Positions 3,914 through 20,404 of a DNA stretch of 21,820 bases are shown piece by piece. A program made the translations under genes and the position numbers. Under the pieces are notes generated by a model. The model was not told the DNA's origin. It saw nothing but the letters and a program-made list of their open reading frames with translations, and did no database searches. The DNA comes from a virus. How positions within the stretch are numbered: position 1 is the first letter of the stretch; the number at the start of each line of letters is the position of its first letter. Where the stretch lies: positions 1 to 21,820 of IMG/VR virus record IMGVR_UViG_3300035689_000100; one strand, written 5' to 3'.

Positions 3914-6900
3914 TTATCGCCCTTTGTCTTTAAGGGTTTGATCGTATTTTAATTTCTGATTGTCTTCAAGCTTAACAGTTTTATCATAAGATGATTTTAA
4001 CACGCTTTTAGGGTCAATCTTATCGCCGAACATATTGCCGCCAGCGCCAGATTTTCTAGCCTCATTAGCATAGTTCTCAAAAAACTCGCCTATTTTTTGT
4101 TTGCTTATAACGCGGCCTTTTTCATAAAGCGCATTGATAATAACGGCCACATCATCCTCAATGGGATTAAATGCGTCTAATTGTTGCATATATTTATCAA
4201 TCGGCAAGCCTTTATCTCTTGCGTCTGAAATAAGCGTCGCTGCTTTGGTTATTTGCTGAGAAAGGTCAAAATCCGCCGTTACATCGCCTCTTTTTATTGC
4301 CGATTTAAGCTTAAGCCATTGTGGGGCTGCTATTTGTAGACCGCCTGTTATGCCTTTGATGTTGTCGTCAAGGGATTCTGAAACGCGCCTCAAAATGGAT
4401 GAATCGCCATAAGCCGCCTGTAGAACAGCGTTGTTAATCCTTGATAAGCCCTCAGATGATAAAATGTTATCTTTATCACGGAAGCTTGCCTGTTCTGTCG
4501 TAGGTAATTTTGATATAAATGAACGGACAAATTTTTCGTTAGCTAATGATTGTAGATCACCAGAATCTTGGATTAAATCAATCATTTCATTGGTGATCAT
4601 CCCCGCTTCCTGTTCAGCTTTTTCAGTCGCGGATTGTTCTAAAATAGCACCCTTGTTTGACATTTGCGTAAATTTAACGCGCTTGTCTTGAGACATTTCA
4701 CCCATTCTTTTTCTCACAAGAACTGGGTTTTTGATGCCTTCAATATTAAAGCCTTGCTCAGTTAAATAGCGCTTATAAGCTTCAGCTTTTTGACCGCCTT
4801 GGCTATAAATACGATTAAGCGCTTCAACGCGGCCATTGCCGCTTTCGACCATCATGTCACCGCCAATAATAGGCGCACCACGATCAGATTCCGATGAATA
4901 GCCTAAGCGCTCAGGATCAAACTCTTTTATTATTTTATTAACTTGCAAATCAGATGACCCTCTTGCTCTATCGCGTGGCTGCAACTCTTGAGAATAGCGC
5001 GGGTTAAATGAATGTATTAATTCAGACGCATCAACAATAACAGGCTCGACCTCAACCTTTGTGTTATCCGCAGCCGTGACGTTATGCTTGCCAAATTTAG
5101 GCGTTACACCACTCACTTGAGAAGGTTGAACCACCTGATTTGTCGCGGCTTGTGTTATCGGAATTTCGACACCTGTCTCTTTTTGTATTGCTGTGACCAT
5201 TGGCTGTATGATTTTAGCCTTTGCCGCATCGGATGCTTTGCTATCAACCACTTTCAAAATTGAATTTAGTTTGCGTGCCGAAACAGGGTTAGCAATGACT
5301 TTTGCAAAGCCATACGTGCCAGCACCAAACAATGCCGCCTTTGCAAAGCCGATAAAACTCCCAACAGTCGCAAGACCGCCAGCTATGCCAAGATTGTTAA
5401 CGACAACGCGCCCCGTGCCTGATTTATTGCCAAACTTTTCAAAGGCTCTTGCCCTGTTCATAACTTGAATAATGTTTTCAATGGAATCGCGGTATTCAGT
5501 GCCTTTAGTCCCAAAAATAGCATTTTTCTGTCTATCACCTATTTTGCTAAATGCCGAAACAAAACCAGTTGGTGAAATATCACCATCAAGATTGCGTCCT
5601 ATTTTAGCAATAAGCGTTCCACGCACTTCGTCGGCAACATCTTTTGGCAATTCACGCATGACTGTATTTAATAGCCCCGCATTGCTTTTAGGGTTAAGAG
5701 CAAGCCGTTCAATCGCGCCAAATACCTCTTCAGCGCTTCTCAATCCGTCTTTGCCAACGATTTTCTCAAGCGCCTTTGATTTTGCAGATGCAATGCCGTA
5801 TTCACGGTTCGCCTTTTCAAACAGCTTTAAGCCCTTTTCACCGCCAGCGTTATAAGCTGCATTCCTTAAATCGCTTGTTAAAGCGCCATAAATGCTTTTT
5901 AATTCACCCTTGCTTGTGTCCTGCAAAAGCGCATTGCTTTGAAGCTCACCTATTTTTGAGCGTAGCGCCTTAACACCTTCAAACGTTAGCCCCTCAGGTG
6001 AATTAATCGCATCGCGCACAATCTTTGTTGCGCTTGTTTCACTTGGCAACATTGCAAGTTTGTTTTTTTCAGCAATTTGATTAACAGCGGATCGCGTCGC
6101 ATTTAAAACGGTTGTTTTTGTTTGATCAATTACTTCATCAAGCGGTTTATAATTTTCACCAGCCCCGCCGCGTGTTTTTACAAAATTAGTGAGCGCTTGA
6201 AGCGTTTTATCACCCGCAACATCGGGAGACGAAGCGCCAAGAGATGAAGCCATATCATCAACACGACCGCCAACTTGTTGAACAAATTTATTTTCAGCGT
6301 TCTTTATAGGCGCACCAAGGAAAGCCAATTCGCCAATAGATGATGCTAGCCCCTGCGTTGCGCCGCTATCTGTTGCCATGTAACGCGGAAGATCAATGCC
6401 TTCCTTAGATGCGGCAATAATTGCTTGATCTGATTCAGATAGTCCTCTTGCCGCTCTTTCAGCCGCTCTATTTGCAAGGTAATCACCGCTTTTGGCAACC
6501 CCTGCCCCGATAACGCCACCAACCGCGCCACCAATAGCGCCTTGTGTCGCGCTATCTTTCAAGCCTTCACCAGCGCCAAAACCATAAAGCCCACCAACCG
6601 CCGCGCCTTGTCTTGCCGCGCTGGCAATGCCTGTAGGGTTAGATAACGCTGGAGCTGTTACCAGCCCACCCGCAATGTTTGCAGCAATGGCAGTTTTAGG
6701 ATTACTTGCTTCTGCAAATTTGTTTTTAAGCCTTTCTTGTGCGACCTGTTCATCATAACGCTTTGAGGCTTGACCATCACCAAAACCAAGCGCGTCAGAT
6801 GCCAGCCTGTAACCGCCTCTCACAACGTCCAACACACCAAAGTCATCGGCTTGATTTTGATAGAGGGCTTTACGTGGATCAGCACTAGGCAATGCTTGCG

Positions 6901-7177
6901 CCGCCATAGCGTCAGATCGTCTTGCATCGCTAGCCCCAGCCGATAACAGGCCAGACATTTCATCGCTTAGATTGCTTGTTAAGCCTTGCTCTAATGCCCT
7001 GCGAATAGTACCGCTTTGTCCATATAATTCAGTTGGCGGGTTTTGCGCTTGCACATCAAAGGCTTGATCAATGCGAGATTGTGGGGAAGGCGTGTCATCC
7101 CACTGCACTTGCGATAAGTCTATTTGAGGGCTATCATCCCACTTGATTTGAGAAATATCAATTTGGCCTGTGCTCAT
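3914..7177 (-). CDS. Large ejection (injection) protein with C-terminal ParB/DdrB-like domain
   Basis: A 1087-residue protein in the position of P22 gp16, the last ejection protein, expected to be packaged in the head and released into the cell with the DNA. Residues 5-30 are a 13-residue tandem repeat (QIDISQIKWDDSP, then QIDLSQVQWDDTP). Residues about 165-230 and 590-630 are Gly/Ala-rich and hydrophobic and could insert into membranes. Residues about 710-840 carry ELQPRDRAR (731-739) and VESGNGRVEAL (777-787), the signature of the DdrB-associated ParB-superfamily domain of phage and plasmid polyvalent proteins. Residues about 860-1045 match the helical DdrB-type region that usually follows it. 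It overlaps the lysozyme-domain gene by four bases (ATGA). The C-terminal assignment is from recalled motifs; nuclease or NTP-binding activity is not shown. Confidence 0.85.
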   Translation of the reverse strand: MSTGQIDISQIKWDDSPQIDLSQVQWDDTPSPQSRIDQAFDVQAQNPPTELYGQSGTIRRALEQGLTSNLSDEMSGLLSAGASDARRSDAMAAQALPSADPRKALYQNQADDFGVLDVVRGGYRLASDALGFGDGQASKRYDEQVAQERLKNKFAEASNPKTAIAANIAGGLVTAPALSNPTGIASAARQGAAVGGLYGFGAGEGLKDSATQGAIGGAVGGVIGAGVAKSGDYLANRAAERAARGLSESDQAIIAASKEGIDLPRYMATDSGATQGLASSIGELAFLGAPIKNAENKFVQQVGGRVDDMASSLGASSPDVAGDKTLQALTNFVKTRGGAGENYKPLDEVIDQTKTTVLNATRSAVNQIAEKNKLAMLPSETSATKIVRDAINSPEGLTFEGVKALRSKIGELQSNALLQDTSKGELKSIYGALTSDLRNAAYNAGGEKGLKLFEKANREYGIASAKSKALEKIVGKDGLRSAEEVFGAIERLALNPKSNAGLLNTVMRELPKDVADEVRGTLIAKIGRNLDGDISPTGFVSAFSKIGDRQKNAIFGTKGTEYRDSIENIIQVMNRARAFEKFGNKSGTGRVVVNNLGIAGGLATVGSFIGFAKAALFGAGTYGFAKVIANPVSARKLNSILKVVDSKASDAAKAKIIQPMVTAIQKETGVEIPITQAATNQVVQPSQVSGVTPKFGKHNVTAADNTKVEVEPVIVDASELIHSFNPRYSQELQPRDRARGSSDLQVNKIIKEFDPERLGYSSESDRGAPIIGGDMMVESGNGRVEALNRIYSQGGQKAEAYKRYLTEQGFNIEGIKNPVLVRKRMGEMSQDKRVKFTQMSNKGAILEQSATEKAEQEAGMITNEMIDLIQDSGDLQSLANEKFVRSFISKLPTTEQASFRDKDNILSSEGLSRINNAVLQAAYGDSSILRRVSESLDDNIKGITGGLQIAAPQWLKLKSAIKRGDVTADFDLSQQITKAATLISDARDKGLPIDKYMQQLDAFNPIEDDVAVIINALYEKGRVISKQKIGEFFENYANEARKSGAGGNMFGDKIDPKSVLKSSYDKTVKLEDNQKLKYDQTLKDKGR

Positions 7178-9030
7178 TGCATTATCTCTGGCTTGCCATT
7201 TCGAATGATAACCCTACGGCCATCGGGAAGCGTTCCAGTTTGTCCCTCTTGAGGTGTGGCGTTTTGCTGTTGTTGATTATTTATTTGGCTGTTGTTTTTT
7301 CTAAAGCTTTGACGTTCATTAGGGGTCATAATTTTCCCGTGAATGATCAAATCAAAATTTTCTTGAACCCTTCTAAGGTTTGTTAAGAATTGCGCTTCAC
7401 TTTGAGACTGCTCTAAACTTGCAACACTGTCTTGTAAAAGCTCAAGTTCTCTAACCGCAATACCACCTAATGCGGCCCCTGTTGGTGAAGCCTCGCGCAT
7501 TTTTTGCAGCTCGCCAAAGGCTGTTTTTGCTTTAATCGTGTTGAGAGTGTTCTTTAAATCGCTCGCATTCGTTGTAAATGGTACATAATCAGCAACGAAT
7601 TGACCGCCCTTGCCAACGGACGGCAAGCTTGATCCACTAACCAATTTTTGAGCGTCACCTATAGCGTCCGTTATGCTGTTATAAGATGATATTTCAGACC
7701 TTTTTTTAGCGCCCATCTTTTGTTGCTTTTCTAAAGCGTCTGCCTCTGCTTCACTGCCTTTAATTGGCCTAATCTCTACAATATCACCATTTTGATCACG
7801 TACGGCCTGATAACCAGCGGGAATAGTGCCCTCATTTTTATTAACAGGCCTTAACTTGCCTTGCGCCTCTGCATCGTACTTTTTAATTTGCGCCTCTTTT
7901 AAGCGCTGTTCAACATCATTGACGGGCTTGCTCATAATGATTTCGGCTTGCCCCGTGCGCGGGTCTGTTCTTAACAGTTGATCGCCAAAGGCTTGGAAGC
8001 CGTATGTTTCCTTTTGTTGCGCTTCAAGAGCTTCTTTACGCACTTTTAGTGCGCGTTCCATGAGAGGGCGGCTATCTGTCGCTTGAGCCTGTCTTGCAAG
8101 GGCTTGAGCGCGTGCCATAAGCTGTTGTGCATAGCTGCTTTGTTGAGGCTGTTGCCCTTGCTGTGGTGCAACAAAGCCTTGAGCAGGTGTTGCCCCTTGT
8201 GCTGGTGCAGATGCCTGTTGTTGACCGCCAACGCCAAACTCTTGCGCCGCACGCCTTGCTTGAGCAATCCTATTCTCAGCACCGTGAGCTAACATAGGAT
8301 TATTCCAAGTAAAGCCAGCGGGTCTGAAATAGCCGATTGCAGCCCTTGCCGCGTCTTCTGGTGTTTGCGCTTTTGCCAACGCTTGCCCTGCACGGCCTTC
8401 GGTTGTTTTTAATTCATGCGCAATAAATGCGCCTTGCACTTCTGGGTCACGCCAATCAAGCCCCTTTGATGCAGCAAAGCCCATGAGGTTTTTCGCACGG
8501 TCTTGATTCCATTGTGCAAGCCCAATGCTATCAGAGCCGTCTCGACCATCGCCACGATTGCGTGCGTCTGTTCTAAAATTGCTTTCTTGTGCAAGATTGC
8601 CTGTCAAGCCAACAGCAGCAACGGGAGAGATACCATTTTTAATAAGCGAGTTGTAAACTTTGCTTTTAATATCGCCTACACCGCCGCCTTGCATTGCTTG
8701 GAATGAAGGCATTTTAGGTTGAGCACTATCAAACGCCTGATCAATTCGAGGATTGCCTTGAGGCTCTTGTTGTGGCGCACCTAAGCCTAATGCAGCAACA
8801 GGTGAGGACGGTTGAGCTGCAATATTTTGATTTTGATCGCCGCCTCCCAATCCAAGAACAGATTGGAACTGACTTTGAAACTCACCTTTAATCGCGTCTG
8901 CTTCCTGCTTTTCTTTTAAGCGTTTTTGCCCACGCTCATAACCTGAAAAGAAAGCGTCAGGCATAGACGCAATCATGTTTGCTACGCCGTAGTCTTTTGT
9001 CGTAAAATCATAAAGAGGAATAGGTGGCAT
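7174..9030 (-). CDS. Ejection protein with phage tail lysozyme domain
   Basis: A 618-residue virion protein. Residues about 122-265 match the phage tail lysozyme family: VYNSLIKNGISPVAAVGLTG, then NLAQESNF with likely catalytic Glu149, SIGLAQWNQDR (168-178) and IAHELKTTEGRAG. It would cut peptidoglycan during DNA entry. Residues about 270-300 are Gln/Ala-rich linker. Residues about 440-575 form a helical module seen in other podovirus ejection proteins (MREASPTGAALGGIAVRELE, 511-530). Residues 95-101 (RIDQAFD) recur at residues 35-41 of the next protein. It starts in a TAATG overlap with the preceding gene and overlaps the following one by four bases. By position it corresponds to P22 gp20. 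The hydrolase call is strong; the ejection role is inferred from synteny. Confidence 0.87.
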   Translation of the reverse strand: MPPIPLYDFTTKDYGVANMIASMPDAFFSGYERGQKRLKEKQEADAIKGEFQSQFQSVLGLGGGDQNQNIAAQPSSPVAALGLGAPQQEPQGNPRIDQAFDSAQPKMPSFQAMQGGGVGDIKSKVYNSLIKNGISPVAAVGLTGNLAQESNFRTDARNRGDGRDGSDSIGLAQWNQDRAKNLMGFAASKGLDWRDPEVQGAFIAHELKTTEGRAGQALAKAQTPEDAARAAIGYFRPAGFTWNNPMLAHGAENRIAQARRAAQEFGVGGQQQASAPAQGATPAQGFVAPQQGQQPQQSSYAQQLMARAQALARQAQATDSRPLMERALKVRKEALEAQQKETYGFQAFGDQLLRTDPRTGQAEIIMSKPVNDVEQRLKEAQIKKYDAEAQGKLRPVNKNEGTIPAGYQAVRDQNGDIVEIRPIKGSEAEADALEKQQKMGAKKRSEISSYNSITDAIGDAQKLVSGSSLPSVGKGGQFVADYVPFTTNASDLKNTLNTIKAKTAFGELQKMREASPTGAALGGIAVRELELLQDSVASLEQSQSEAQFLTNLRRVQENFDLIIHGKIMTPNERQSFRKNNSQINNQQQQNATPQEGQTGTLPDGRRVIIRNGKPEIMQ

Positions 9031-9728
9031 TATTTACCCCCTGTGAAAATCTTTGTGAACATGCCACCACTGCCCATGCCAGACCCCATAAGCGACGCGA
9101 GAGCTTGGCCACCAGCCGCCCAGTTCGCTTCTTGCTTGGCCTTCACATCATCACCAGCTTTGAGCGCACCCATTCCCATACCTGTAATGTTGTTGATATT
9201 GTCTTGAATGGTTGAGCCGCGTTGATTGTAATAATTGCTTGCAAGTCCTGCCAAATTTCCGAGATTGTTGTTTCTCAGTTGCGCCGTCTGCAAACCGCGT
9301 TGATCCATATCGCCAAGCCGACCAAGATGATCGCCATAAGTTTTGTTATACAGCCCCGCCATATAGCTCATCACATCGGTGTCAGTATTTCCGCTATTAA
9401 GCATCCCACCCGCAGAAGCCTTGCGCAAAATGCCTTGGCTATCCTGTTGAGCGTTGTCTTTCATTAATCTGGCAAGCGGAGAGCTTTGAAACATCCCTAG
9501 AGCGCTTTGATTGCCAGCCTCACCGCCCAAGCCAAGCGCATTAGAATAAGCCTCAGAACCCGCGCCGTATCTGTCAGCATACGGCTTGTAGTATTCATCA
9601 CCCTGTCCTAGGTAGCCCTTGGCCTCATTATAGCCTGTGTCATATTCACCGAGAACGCGCTTCTCACCGTCTTGAATGGTTTGAGCGCCCCACATCGCTG
9701 CATTGCGCGCACCTTTTGCACTTGGCAT
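9030..9728 (-). CDS. Ejection/internal virion protein, gp7-like, 232 aa
   Basis: A 232-residue protein in the position of P22 gp7 (229 residues), the first of three consecutive ejection proteins. The N-terminal half is helical and Tyr/Gly-rich (YDTGYNEAKGYLGQGDEYYKPYADRY). The middle has repeated Gly-Asn-Leu and LASNYYNQRG segments. The last 40 residues are Gly/Ala/Met-rich (AAGGQALASLMGSGMGSGG), suited to an amphipathic or membrane-inserting helix. There is no catalytic motif and no signal peptide. The start has AAGGA eight bases upstream, in a leader closely resembling those of the coat and head-fibre genes, suggesting strong translation. The ejection assignment rests on length, composition and order rather than a recognised motif. 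Confidence 0.7.
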   Translation of the reverse strand: MPSAKGARNAAMWGAQTIQDGEKRVLGEYDTGYNEAKGYLGQGDEYYKPYADRYGAGSEAYSNALGLGGEAGNQSALGMFQSSPLARLMKDNAQQDSQGILRKASAGGMLNSGNTDTDVMSYMAGLYNKTYGDHLGRLGDMDQRGLQTAQLRNNNLGNLAGLASNYYNQRGSTIQDNINNITGMGMGALKAGDDVKAKQEANWAAGGQALASLMGSGMGSGGMFTKIFTGGK

Positions 9729-9739
9729 GTTTTAAATCC

Positions 9740-10015
9740 TTACGTGAATTGGATGCTTTTAAGCGTGCCACCGTGATTGACCCACCAACGCACTTGACCG
9801 CTGGTTGTGTTCTCGAACACCCTTACATCGCCGTCTTGAATGTCACTTGTTGTTGGATCAGCCGCTAAAGATGTGATCTTCATCCTTGTTCTGATATCAC
9901 TCACGCACGCAAACATCGAATAGTTGAACGTGTAATAAATAGGATCAAACGTAGTCCCAACACCCGAAACAGGGCTTGAATTGATTTTCGGGATAGGCTG
10001 GAGTTCAATGCTCAT
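9740..10015 (-). CDS. Small hypothetical virion protein, 91 aa
   Basis: A 91-residue protein between the tail hub and the first ejection protein, the place held by genes 26 and 14 in P22. It overlaps the hub gene by four bases (ATGA), and its stop codon overlaps the Shine-Dalgarno of the next gene. The sequence is beta-rich, with TFDPIYYTFNYSMFACVSD near residues 22-40 and GQVRWWVNHGGTLKSIQF at the end. It has no coiled coil, so it does not look like a gp26 tail needle. A head-completion or tail-plug role is possible from position. No family is recognised. Confidence 0.7.
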   Translation of the reverse strand: MSIELQPIPKINSSPVSGVGTTFDPIYYTFNYSMFACVSDIRTRMKITSLAADPTTSDIQDGDVRVFENTTSGQVRWWVNHGGTLKSIQFT

Positions 10016-11433
10016 GCGTTTGCAAGCTTCACAATGTCAGCGTCAGCGGCATACAAAGTAAAATTAACGGGGTCTGAAACATCAATGCGCACTTGAGCGC
10101 CTTTGTTTGATATTTTGCCGAGCCTGTTAATTCTGATTTGAGCGCGATAATCGCCTTCTTTGCCGATTGAACGACGAATAGGGTTTTCAAACGTCACGCC
10201 ACCATTGCGCGATACGCTGATCATGCATTGCGGGTCTGTTTCAATAGGCACAGCACCCGTTCTAACGCCAACACCCGTGTTCATATCAATGTTGAGAGCG
10301 TGCCAGCTTGCGCCCGTTGAGAATGCACTCATAGTCGCGCTGATAACCGTTGCGATTAACGGATCGTTGCCTTCTTTGTAATATTCGGGATCAACGACAT
10401 ACATTTTGCCGTTGTAAGCATCGCCCACAAGCCAAGAGCCGAACGCCTTAACCGTGAATGAACCACGCCACCGCGATTGTTCATAACTTGTGCGCTCATA
10501 CCATCCGCCCGTTGAATAATCATATTCCCATGTCCACGACTGGCAGGAAAGCACCCAGCACGGATGACCCGCGTGCATATAAACACACGCTTCTAGCTCA
10601 TTCTTATCGACTAAATTCTCGATATCTCTTTCAACGGTGTGATTACTCACAGGCGTTGGTGTGTAGCCCCGCATTTGATAAACTTTATTATCATCACCGA
10701 CAAACATTGGGGGTTGCGTAAAGCCAGCCTCAAACCCCGCAACAGCAGATGATGACGCAATGCCATAAGAGAGCGTATCGAGGAACGTGAAGGGAAAGGC
10801 GACAAGGTTGCCCGTGTTGCGCCATATTTCCGTTGTTTCCTTGCCAAATGCGATCAGATCACGCCCTAAAGGTATTGCCCTCAAAAGACCGTCTGGTTTG
10901 CTTTCTGCAAAGGCAGTGTCAAGCGTATTGATTGCCGTATCGTTGAGCGCAGTCGTTCTCATGCGCCCATCGCCATAAACAAAGACGAAATAGCCACCCA
11001 AAAAACATACGGCTATTGGCGAGCCTACATCCGCGTCAGGATAACTTGCAGGAGCGCCGCTTGTCGTAAGCAAATAAGCCGTTGAGTCTGTTACAGCGAC
11101 AATATCAGGCGTAGGTGCTTTGTTATTGCGAGCAAAATAGACCTGACCAGTTCCAGACAGAACCCCTAGATCAGTCGATGAATAAGTGCCATCGCCATTG
11201 CTCGTGATATAAACAAGCCTGTTATCAAGCGCCGCTAGCACGTTCTCATTGATATTAAGAAAGCCGCGACAATGCGTGTAATTGGCTATCTCAACAATCT
11301 CACGCAAACCAGCAACGCGCTTTCTTGCAATGCGTCCATCGTTTAGCTTCTCGACGTATGTATTGATTAAGCGCCCCCCGCTTTCCGAAAACTCAGCAGG
11401 GCTTGAGAGCGTGGGTAAAGGAACGTCAACCAT
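10012..11433 (-). CDS. Packaged-DNA stabilisation / tail hub protein, P22 gp10-like
   Basis: A 473-residue protein matching the P22 gp10 family (472 residues), which binds the gp4 ring below the portal, closes the filled head and forms the hub for tail fibres. The sequence begins VPLPTLSSPAEFSESGGRLINTYVEK, as in family members. It then runs through repeated beta-blade-like segments (RLVYITSNGDGTYS, AYLLTTSGAP, FVFVYGDGRMRTT, LIAFGKETTEIWRNTG, KMYVVDPEYY). No signal peptide or membrane segment is present. It directly abuts the end of the gp4-like gene with no intergenic bases, consistent with the P22 order 5-4-10. Family and role are assigned with good confidence from synteny and pattern. Confidence 0.88.
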   Translation of the reverse strand: MVDVPLPTLSSPAEFSESGGRLINTYVEKLNDGRIARKRVAGLREIVEIANYTHCRGFLNINENVLAALDNRLVYITSNGDGTYSSTDLGVLSGTGQVYFARNNKAPTPDIVAVTDSTAYLLTTSGAPASYPDADVGSPIAVCFLGGYFVFVYGDGRMRTTALNDTAINTLDTAFAESKPDGLLRAIPLGRDLIAFGKETTEIWRNTGNLVAFPFTFLDTLSYGIASSSAVAGFEAGFTQPPMFVGDDNKVYQMRGYTPTPVSNHTVERDIENLVDKNELEACVYMHAGHPCWVLSCQSWTWEYDYSTGGWYERTSYEQSRWRGSFTVKAFGSWLVGDAYNGKMYVVDPEYYKEGNDPLIATVISATMSAFSTGASWHALNIDMNTGVGVRTGAVPIETDPQCMISVSRNGGVTFENPIRRSIGKEGDYRAQIRINRLGKISNKGAQVRIDVSDPVNFTLYAADADIVKLANA

Positions 11434-14266: not shown

Positions 14267-16432
14267 TTATGCGTCAGCTCCTGCAAATCCGTCATAGGGC
14301 GAAGGCTGGACAAATTGGCCTTGCTCTAAATCTTGCATTATCATTTGCTCTTGAGGATCAAAGGCCATTTGAGGCTCTTGAGGTTGCTCTAACATGGCAA
14401 TAATTTGGCTTAGTGCTTGCTCTAGCGTGTTGACGTTTTGCGCAAGCATATCGACACGCGGATCAACGGTTTGAATAGGCTGCATCATGCCAGCCATTTC
14501 AGCTTCTGCCTTTTTAAGCTCAAGATCGGCTTTCATTGCGTCTGCTTGGGCTTTTTGCGCTTGTGCGTTCTTAATGTTCACATCGGCTTGTTTCATCGCC
14601 ATGTCAGCTTGCTTGCTTTCCATTTCCATTTGCATAGCCGCTTGCTCTTCTGGTGAAGGCATAGGCGGTTGTTTTGGTTGAGCGCCTTCCTCTTCTTGCT
14701 CAGCGGCTAATATCGCAGGGGGAAGCATTGTTTTTAAACGCTCGGCAATCTTGTCGGACAAAGGCCAGTCTTGAGACTTGGCCACCAGATCGGCAATCAT
14801 GGGAGACACAGCGGGGTTAGACTGCAAGAAGCTCATCATTCCGTCTTTGGCTTCCATGCGCTTTGTGGTGTAAGACGCGCCTGTTTCGACACGCAAATCA
14901 TAGGAAAGATTACTCATGTCGTTCTGGATGAAGTCTTGACCGCCCAAAAGCAGCGCTTTGTTTAGATCGACCTCATTTACCGCGCCATCTTCACCAATGA
15001 CTTGCAAAACACGTTCAGTGTCGTAAATATGCGGGATCATCTCAAGAATGATGCGCCCTGTATGCTCAAGCGCACGTTTAAAGTTCTCGATGTAAACATA
15101 TGTACCAGTGTCGCTTTGTCTATCCCTCGCTTGAATAGCAACGCCTGATGTCTCATTCGATCTATTGCCAAGAGCGCTATCATAAATGCCTGTAATGGCC
15201 TTCATGTCCTCAACGGCGAGATTAATGCCCTCACCAATTCCTTGCGACGAGACGGGAGGCTGCGAGCGTTGAGGCGCACTTGCACCAGATACAGGCGTAT
15301 AAATCAGAGCGGGGAGATTGTCGGTGTTTGCACCACTCCACATCTCTAAATGATCATCAAGCTGCCCTTTTGCCGCGATAAACGGCACTTTAGGCTGTAA
15401 TGCAACGACTTCAACATGTGATGATGTGAAATAGTTTAAGCGCCGTTGCGCATCCTTGATGAACCTGATTTTACCGTGTCTGTAGGTTTTTGTACCTACC
15501 CGCACTTCCTCGCCAATGATCGGCACAATCGGAATATGCTTAGCGTTTTTCTTGCCCTTTGAAACGCCCCATTCAACAGCATCTTCAAGGATTTCCGTTG
15601 ATGTGACAACGTATTTGCAAATGGTGGTAGCATCGCGCTGGATAACCGAGCCATCCGCACGAATGATGTCTTTCTTTGTCTTTTTCTTAACCCAATACTC
15701 ACAAACGCGAATGTTATCGTTCTCAGACCACCATGAGTCAGTGCCATGCATCGAATGCGCACGGTATTGATGGATGTCATCAAAGCCAGAGGTTGCCGCA
15801 TCGGGGTATTTTTCTTTAAAAACCGCAAGCGTCATATCAACAGGGACGAAACACCATTGCGCGTCACTGCGATCTGGTCTTGTCGCATCGGGATCCCAAA
15901 TTACACCTACACCATCGTCAACACGCTCGATGCGTATCTCTTGCAAATCGGTGTCATCGTCCGCATAGTCCGTCGTGACACGCCAATGACCAATGCCAGC
16001 GGTTACTTGGCTATCCGCAGCATAATAAAACGCATCGGACGCAACAGAGTTATAAGTGATGTGCCTTAGTATCTGATTGACAGCGTCGGCTTTGTCTTTA
16101 TCGTTGTCTTGTATGCCCACAACTTTAAACGTGGGGTTCATCTGGCGTATATCGCCCGTCACTTGATTGATGAATTGAGGGCAACGATTAACGACTAAGC
16201 ATGGCCTATCAGCGTTTTCGCGGTCTTTCTTGATCTTCTCGTCCCAGTGACCAATGCCAGCGCGAAACTCTAAATCCTGATACGCTTCTCTTGTATTGTT
16301 GCGCTCATATTCAACGCCGCGAGAAGCACGCTCACGCATGAGCTTAAGGAAGCCAGCATCATCCTCTTTTTTACGCGCCTTGCCAGCCAGACCCTCCGCC
16401 TCGGCCTTGTCGTAATTTGTTAATGATGTCAT
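14267..16432 (-). CDS. Portal protein, P22 gp1-like
   Basis: A 721-residue portal (725 in P22) that forms the ring at the packaging vertex. The frame extends 18 codons further upstream, but ATG at 16432 is chosen. It has AAGGA eleven bases upstream, gives a sensible N-terminus (MTSLTNYDKAEAEGLAG), and yields the family length. It overlaps the terminase gene by 62 bases. Typical segments include DRPCLVVNRCPQFINQVTGDIRQ and the core DMKAITGIYDSALGNRSNETSGVAIQARDRQ, split across the clip and wing. Residues about 596-650 are an uninterrupted Gln/Ala/Lys/Met helix, followed by another helix at about 664-682, matching the long C-terminal barrel of P22 portal. Confidence is high. Confidence 0.92.
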   Translation of the reverse strand: MTSLTNYDKAEAEGLAGKARKKEDDAGFLKLMRERASRGVEYERNNTREAYQDLEFRAGIGHWDEKIKKDRENADRPCLVVNRCPQFINQVTGDIRQMNPTFKVVGIQDNDKDKADAVNQILRHITYNSVASDAFYYAADSQVTAGIGHWRVTTDYADDDTDLQEIRIERVDDGVGVIWDPDATRPDRSDAQWCFVPVDMTLAVFKEKYPDAATSGFDDIHQYRAHSMHGTDSWWSENDNIRVCEYWVKKKTKKDIIRADGSVIQRDATTICKYVVTSTEILEDAVEWGVSKGKKNAKHIPIVPIIGEEVRVGTKTYRHGKIRFIKDAQRRLNYFTSSHVEVVALQPKVPFIAAKGQLDDHLEMWSGANTDNLPALIYTPVSGASAPQRSQPPVSSQGIGEGINLAVEDMKAITGIYDSALGNRSNETSGVAIQARDRQSDTGTYVYIENFKRALEHTGRIILEMIPHIYDTERVLQVIGEDGAVNEVDLNKALLLGGQDFIQNDMSNLSYDLRVETGASYTTKRMEAKDGMMSFLQSNPAVSPMIADLVAKSQDWPLSDKIAERLKTMLPPAILAAEQEEEGAQPKQPPMPSPEEQAAMQMEMESKQADMAMKQADVNIKNAQAQKAQADAMKADLELKKAEAEMAGMMQPIQTVDPRVDMLAQNVNTLEQALSQIIAMLEQPQEPQMAFDPQEQMIMQDLEQGQFVQPSPYDGFAGADA

Positions 16433-19980: not shown

Positions 19981-20214
19981 ATGAATGCAATAAGCAAAAA
20001 TTACAAACGGATTATCATTAATAATTTTAGCATCGCACCAGACGATGAGGTCGTTGAAAAAGTTTTAGAAATAATAAAACAAGGACGCAATTCAGGAGAT
20101 AGTTATTGCTATGTGACTGTTTGGAGTAAGCTTTATGTTAGAGCTAAAACAAATAAAAACGGCTCTGATATTTTTAATGTTTTTGATCGAGATGCAAACC
20201 ATGACCCCCGCTGA
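19981..20214 (+). CDS. Hypothetical protein, 77 aa
   Basis: A 77-residue protein starting three bases after the previous stop, with AGGTGA as Shine-Dalgarno. It begins with a basic strand-helix segment (NYKRIIINNFSIAPDDEVVEKVLEIIKQGR). A beta-rich part (SYCYVTVWSKLYVRAKTN) follows, and the tail is polar. The size and mixed alpha/beta pattern fit many small phage regulators, but no motif is diagnostic. It overlaps the helix-turn-helix gene by 14 bases, so the two may be translated together. Confidence 0.65.
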   Translation: MNAISKNYKRIIINNFSIAPDDEVVEKVLEIIKQGRNSGDSYCYVTVWSKLYVRAKTNKNGSDIFNVFDRDANHDPR

Positions 20215-20404
20215 ATTTAAGGCTATTCGTGAGGCTCTTGGCATGTCTCAATCGTTGTTTGCTCGTGCGTTAGCTGCGGTTAATCCTGCTGTTGCCGCGC
20301 CTAATTATCAGCGTATTTATGAGTGGGAGAACGGGTTTAGACCGTTACCTGTTCAGTGGATTATGAGGGCTAACGTGCTTAAAAAGAAACGCCGCGCTTC
20401 ATAA
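20201..20404 (+). CDS. Helix-turn-helix DNA-binding protein, Cro/antitoxin-like, 67 aa
   Basis: The frame is longer upstream, but the product beginning MTPAEFKAIREALGMSQSLF is chosen. That start gives the standard first helix of the XRE/Cro family and overlaps the preceding gene by only 14 bases. ATG at 20192 is an alternative three codons earlier. Residues 4-35 carry the helix-turn-helix (FKAIREALGMSQSLFARAL). QRIYEWENGFRPLP follows at about 37-50, the typical recognition-helix sequel in MqsA-type antitoxins and small phage regulators. The basic tail is LKKKRRAS. It could bind the dyad at 19460-19477 or the repeats at 19356-19385, giving autoregulation. It ends 26 bases inside the convergent gene. 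DNA binding is well supported; target and role are inferred. Confidence 0.8.
   Translation: MTPAEFKAIREALGMSQSLFARALAAVNPAVAAPNYQRIYEWENGFRPLPVQWIMRANVLKKKRRAS

Follow-up and report, generated by a model that had tools for sequence, protein, structure and literature searches.

The stretch of viral DNA analyzed here, hereafter the window, comprises 21,820 nucleotides, positions 1 to 21,820 of IMG/VR record IMGVR_UViG_3300035689_000100. On its minus strand, an open reading frame at 3914..7177 encodes a protein of 1087 amino acids, uninterrupted by any internal stop, whose start codon overlaps the stop codon of the upstream gene (ATGA). This upstream gene (7174..9030, minus strand) lies at the position of P22 gp20 and encodes a protein with an internal Phage_lysozyme2 domain at residues 123-264 (E=7e-25); phage Pam5 shows the same arrangement, with its gene annotated as a tail lysozyme. 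In the place of P22 gp7, a gene at 9030..9728 (minus strand) makes a weak match to PHROG 598, "DNA ejection" (E=9e-4). Genes for P22-type coat, portal, Hc3 (head-closure), and "DNA ejection" proteins follow the P22 order, and the syntenic series of portal, scaffold, coat, gp10, gp7, gp20, and gp16 is that of a P22-type head cluster. A first-pass annotation, made from the letters of the window, had placed the 1087-residue protein at the position of P22 gp16. This placement is borne out by the gene order, and also by profile-profile homology of the protein's N-terminal region to gp16, described below.

The window is 100% identical to part of a second record, IMGVR_UViG_3300035663_000039 (38,352 bp). 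A 127-bp segment, window positions 20159-20285, is found at each end of that record, and the genome is therefore complete, circularly closed (or permuted), and about 38.2 kb in size, with the window spanning the record junction. Outside the window, the same genome encodes two DNA methyltransferases close together, of the C5-cytosine and N6/N4 types (L135:13472-14362 and 14874-15575), which fits restriction pressure; no restriction endonuclease was recognized among the scanned subset of this genome's open reading frames. The phage genome also carries, on the minus strand, a transposase-like gene with a small neighbor (L135:8237-9523 and 9519-10067; PHROG 4285, E=6e-20) and a Rad52/22-family recombinase gene (L135:6617-7240, E=1e-38) adjoining a gene of the Gp157 family.

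By its sequence, the 1087-residue protein is a fusion of an inner-membrane DNA-ejection protein with a DdrB module. Pfam finds a single domain in it, ddrB-ParB (PF18763), while the NCBIfam search returned no family and PADLOC matched the protein to none of its defense families. Sequence searches of PDB with the protein and with both profiles gave, as best matches, variant surface glycoproteins, designed helical repeats, and RNA polymerase, all of which we judged to be chance matches. The HExxH motif is absent, which makes self-processing of the kind proposed for P1 DdrB unlikely in this protein, and identification as a metallopeptidase polyvalent protein was dropped for the same reason. Polyvalent proteins as described by Iyer et al. 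combine several effectors on one chain, in many cases including a metallopeptidase, and are brought in at invasion; here there is one recognizable effector module on a protein of delivery type.

The DdrB module occupies residues 688-1052 (4022..5116, minus strand) and forms one conserved unit of a ParB-like domain and a helical domain. PF18763 matches residues 704-824 (4706..5068, minus strand) with E=3.2e-34 and 118.1 bits, against a Pfam curated cutoff of 27.6, and scores 122.8 bits in a genome-level search. In tblastn against a phage collection, P1 DdrB (YP_006491.1) from the Dar antirestriction system shows 33% identity over residues 679-1051 (E=6e-39), and the C-terminal part of the protein is homologous to P1 DdrB. 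The two segments from which the first-pass annotation had recognized the domain match the translation exactly, ELQPRDRAR at residues 731-739 (4961..4987, minus strand) and VESGNGRVEAL, the pocket loop, at residues 777-787 (4817..4849, minus strand); given the E-values, a chance motif match is ruled out as their origin. Canonical partition ParB was also dropped as an identity, as Pfam shows no ParB_N match.

Conservation was assessed across 63 relatives that are 31-44% identical to the window's module. Twelve residues invariant in that set are present here: Q733, R735, and R737 in the first segment, S779, G780, N781, and R783 in the pocket loop, Tyr801 (4775..4777, minus strand), and Q745, G767, P769, and P818. 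The Gly-Asn-Gly-Arg pocket, whose loss in close homologs the annotation had named as evidence against its reading, is thus kept in all 63, and with the Pfam score and the homology to P1 DdrB this upholds the proposed domain identity. DdrB-like ParB domains are described as having an arginine in the pocket, an Asp or Asn where strand 2 ends, and, ahead of the final strand, an additional helix that carries a tyrosine (PMC5512222). R783, within SGNGR, fits the first by motif rather than by comparison with the published figure. In the AlphaFold model of the module (pLDDT 90.7, pTM 0.74), D716 closes the strand 707-716, and Y801 lies on a helix, 796-807, ahead of the strand 818-824, in agreement with the extra helix said to mark these domains (PMC5512222). 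Columns conserved in at least 97% of sequences number 17 of 116 in the ParB-like part versus 10 of 226 in the helical part.

The helical part spans residues 825-1052 (4022..4705, minus strand) and terminates in a conserved LFG/MFG motif. A helical region following the two segments had been predicted correctly, but its length is about 230 residues rather than 180. In alignments of the relatives, the ParB-like domain and the helical region form a single unit of about 370 residues, so the helical part belongs to the same module, and its treatment as a separate domain was dropped. In phage D6, a 454-residue protein consists almost entirely of the module, and in large phage proteins of 1000-4700 residues it is internal. 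In a set of 30 module-bearing proteins, large ones also carry other domains on the same chain, LPD1 in six of the 30 and LPD38 in two, with single cases each of zeta-toxin-like, PBECR1, PBECR3, and RadC domains.

Membership of the module in the DdrB family is firm; its membership in the wider ParB/Srx superfamily is supported by the published classification and by a tier of viral structure matches to the predicted model. Foldseek against viral structures (BFVD) returns DdrB proteins first, with E-values down to 6e-27, and then phage ParB, ParB/sulfiredoxin, Spo0J, and GmrSD-type proteins at E-values of about 0.007-0.06, below usual significance, several with probabilities of 0.97-1.00. A purely structural fold, the other finding that would have told against the annotation, is not what this search returns. 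The ParB/Srx-like assignment that the annotation had made agrees with the viral structure matches but was not reproduced by two other approaches. When the whole module was the query, Foldseek found nothing significant in PDB; the helical part, at 230 residues, probably outweighs the rest of this query. Profile-profile comparison of ddrB-ParB with a small set of canonical ParB_N domains (11, taken from two rhizobial genomes) gave an alignment that was mis-registered and not significant.

The ejection-protein half comprises residues 1-660 (5198..7177, minus strand). Residues 1-240 are poorly ordered and rich in glycine and alanine, and are followed by a well-predicted helical core at approximately residues 247-585. 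Hydropathy points to two candidate membrane segments: a glycine-rich hydrophobic stretch, TAIAANIAGGLV...GAIGGAVGGVIGAGVA, at residues 162-228 (6494..6694, minus strand), and a second such stretch at residues 591-629 (5291..5407, minus strand), just ahead of the module, that may enter the inner membrane. Profile-profile comparison of the ejection family with six P22 gp16-type proteins aligned 568 columns at a probability of 99.3% (E=1.3e-20), while five column-shuffled controls reached at most 0.2% and a reversed profile 0.3%. The N-terminal 660 or so residues are thus a clear, if remote, homolog of P22 gp16, which is itself 609 residues long, lacks a DdrB module, and is encoded in the same gene order. 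The Pseudanabaena phage protein Pam5 gp13 (UQS95229.1, 692 residues) occupies the same gene position after a tail-lysozyme gene and is 32.5% identical over residues 58-610 (E=1e-57), but has no DdrB module at its end. Further relatives of this half are a "putative injection protein" of Rhizobium phage RHph_Y1_10 and a protein of a Sphingopyxis phage. The structure model of the ejection half is weak (pLDDT 66.7), and Foldseek against PDB with that model gave no significant match.

When viral sequences were scanned by pattern for the ejection half, 34 loci came up, one of them the window's own virus. At none of the other 33 does the ejection protein carry a DdrB module; a few of these loci are cut upstream by the contig end, with the C-terminal ends still visible. 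The ejection proteins of the isolated phages Pam5 and RHph_Y1_10 also lack it, and the module is dispensable in these relatives. Among phage and plasmid records, every match falls short of 80% coverage of the 1087-residue protein, and across 385 alphaproteobacterial genomes matches extend over one half or the other, never both, so that the full fusion of the window's type has been seen in one virus only.

Among loci bearing the module, one other gp16-type protein was found, encoded at L074:6750-9980 in IMGVR_UViG_3300043409_001730 (L074). The N-terminus of this 1077-residue protein is homologous to the ejection family (profile-profile, 96.1%, E=3e-9), but its DdrB module lies in mid-protein, at residues 415-756, and belongs to a different clade. 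In the module tree, the window's module lies close to modules from very large phage proteins (L020-L028), its long branch leaving the exact neighbor unsure, while that of L074 groups with L052 and L080; a tree constrained to hold the two together was rejected (p-AU 0.002). Gp16-type proteins have thus taken up the module twice independently. In Alcaligenes phage Piluca and Acinetobacter phages TPWB-05 and MD-2021a, the module is found on a different internal protein of short-tailed phages (949-963 residues, 33-37% identity). These phages belong to an epsilon15-type podovirus lineage, their modules fall in another clade, they have no gp16-type core, and in TPWB-05 the fusion partner of the module is a transglycosylase SLT domain. 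The module has thus been gained more than once by delivery proteins of short-tailed phages.

P1 DdrB shares the whole module of ParB-like and helical parts with the same pocket motifs. It differs in that the module stands at the protein's N-terminus and a predicted metallopeptidase at its end (HELGH at 872), whereas the window's protein has a gp16-type N-terminus and no HExxH. The genomic settings differ as well. When the six P1 Dar proteins were searched by tblastn against the complete 38-kb genome, DdrB alone found a match (E=7e-43); DarB, DarA, Hdf, DdrA, and Ulx were undetectable, the best of these five being DarA at E=0.94. The DdrB-like ParB polyvalent proteins of Iyer et al. belong to the same domain family, and injection was already proposed there for lysozyme fusions of Acinetobacter prophages, so the idea that injected phage proteins contain DdrB-ParB domains is already in print; P22-type ejection proteins go unmentioned in the text of that paper, which has no occurrence of "P22" (PMC5512222). 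Each half of the window's protein is a known family, and no earlier description of a P22 gp16-type ejection protein fused to DdrB was found in the searchable literature. What is new is this fusion, its independent recurrence, and the absence of other Dar proteins.

We infer the packaging, ejection, and topology of the protein by analogy with published work on P22, T7, and P1. P22 gp16 is a virion protein that leaves before the DNA and is membrane-bound where the DNA comes in, the inner membrane being its presumed location (PMC10883804). In T7, the C-terminal part of gp16 is believed to reach into the cytoplasm (PMC8954989). DdrB has been detected in the P1 virion (PMC9024508), P1 Dar proteins including DdrB reside in the head and are co-ejected (PMC9024508, PMC12810830), and the protection that they give acts in cis only (PMC12707154). 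By these precedents, delivery of the 1087-residue protein with the virion is likely. A gp16-type ejection protein with an added C-terminal module would be packaged in the virion and released together with its gp7- and gp20-type partners, and its gp16 half would enter the inner membrane where DNA passes into the cytoplasm. The DdrB module would thereby be kept at the cytoplasmic mouth of the conduit and be the first to meet the incoming genome, acting in cis, on the arriving DNA or near it, in the earliest moments of infection. We hypothesize that the module has a biochemical activity, perhaps enzymatic, its ParB/Srx-like pocket binding or hydrolyzing NTP, or binding or nicking DNA, and that its purpose is anti-restriction, with less attack by host defenses, restriction for example, as the outcome. 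Absence of the module from 33 relatives of the ejection half, together with its independent capture on two occasions, is as expected of an accessory payload.

This tethered, virion-delivered module, acting in cis to lower attack by host defenses, is the reading that we tentatively prefer, at a confidence a little short of even. Residues 476-609 of P22 gp16 are dispensable for membrane association (PMC10883804), and the gp16 C-terminus may lie on either side of the membrane, which counts against the proposed topology. That no other P1 Dar protein is detectable here makes the comparison with the Dar system incomplete. A stronger proposal is that the fusion is a protection device made of one protein, in which a nucleotide- or DNA-acting module fixed at the pore acts only on the DNA that passes it and would give the cis-only protection known from P1 Dar without DarA, DarB, and the rest; this we regard as rather doubtful.

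P1 DdrB is also credited with a non-enzymatic role, which suggests that the module might instead be an assembly adaptor that docks or loads another internal head protein but does not itself act in the cell. The table of P1 virion proteins states that DdrB "aids DarB addition to capsid" (PMC9024508), incorporation of Dar proteins is stepwise (PMC12810830), and packaging of some depends on others (PMC12707154), which makes any separate role of P1 DdrB hard to tell from capsid loading. The known cargo is missing here, however, as no homolog of DarB, DarA, Hdf, DdrA, or Ulx is detectable in the complete genome, and in a genome without DarB, a DarB-loading role alone leaves the presence of the module unexplained. 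The concentration of conserved columns in the ParB-like pocket is also unexpected for a pure docking domain, and we consider an adaptor unlikely. A non-catalytic clamp that binds the entering genome, whether to ratchet it, hold it, or help it circularize, would suit the DNA binding of T7 gp16-C along with its presumed protrusion into the cytoplasm (PMC8954989), a P22 gp16 mutation that may affect circularization of transducing DNA (PMC10883804), and the work of ParB-superfamily domains on DNA or NTP (PMC5512222). Yet 33 relatives of the ejection half, and the isolated phages Pam5 and RHph_Y1_10, show that DNA entry itself can do without the module, and a clamp seems distinctly unlikely.

The authors who defined the domain point to Osa and GmrS as examples of ParB-like DNases and nucleotidases (PMC5512222), and the module could in principle be an injected NTP-dependent nickase or nuclease that damages host DNA or co-infecting genomes. 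The same authors prefer NTP sensing or degradation (PMC5512222), P1 ddrB is non-essential (PMC10695390), and the phage's own DNA would presumably be at risk from a DNase anchored at the pore through which it enters; we find such an attack improbable. Finally, the fusion may be a passive product of recombination that is under no selection for function in this phage, as its occurrence in a single virus and the slightly AT-richer module (41.9% GC versus 46.5% GC in the ejection half) could suggest. But the frame and every pocket residue are intact even though the nearest relatives of the module are at most 46% identical, and a second gp16-type protein, that of L074, gained the module independently by our analysis, so that this explanation appears very improbable.

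The presence of the module on an ejection protein both here and, independently, in L074 shows that gp16-type ejection proteins are carriers able to acquire payload modules. Because this P22-type phage encodes no other detectable Dar protein, it allows the action of the module in the cell to be studied apart from the loading of DarB. Tethering, if it occurs, suggests a physical reason for the cis-only action of some virion-borne protection, and if the one-protein device were to prove true, DdrB itself would be the active component rather than a packaging helper.

At five further loci (L033-L035, L038, and L049), a protein of 768-784 residues with a DdrB module is encoded directly downstream of a homolog of the window's lysozyme-bearing gp20-type gene. 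The N-termini of these proteins do not match the gp16-type profile, and the arrangement possibly represents another route to the same delivery.
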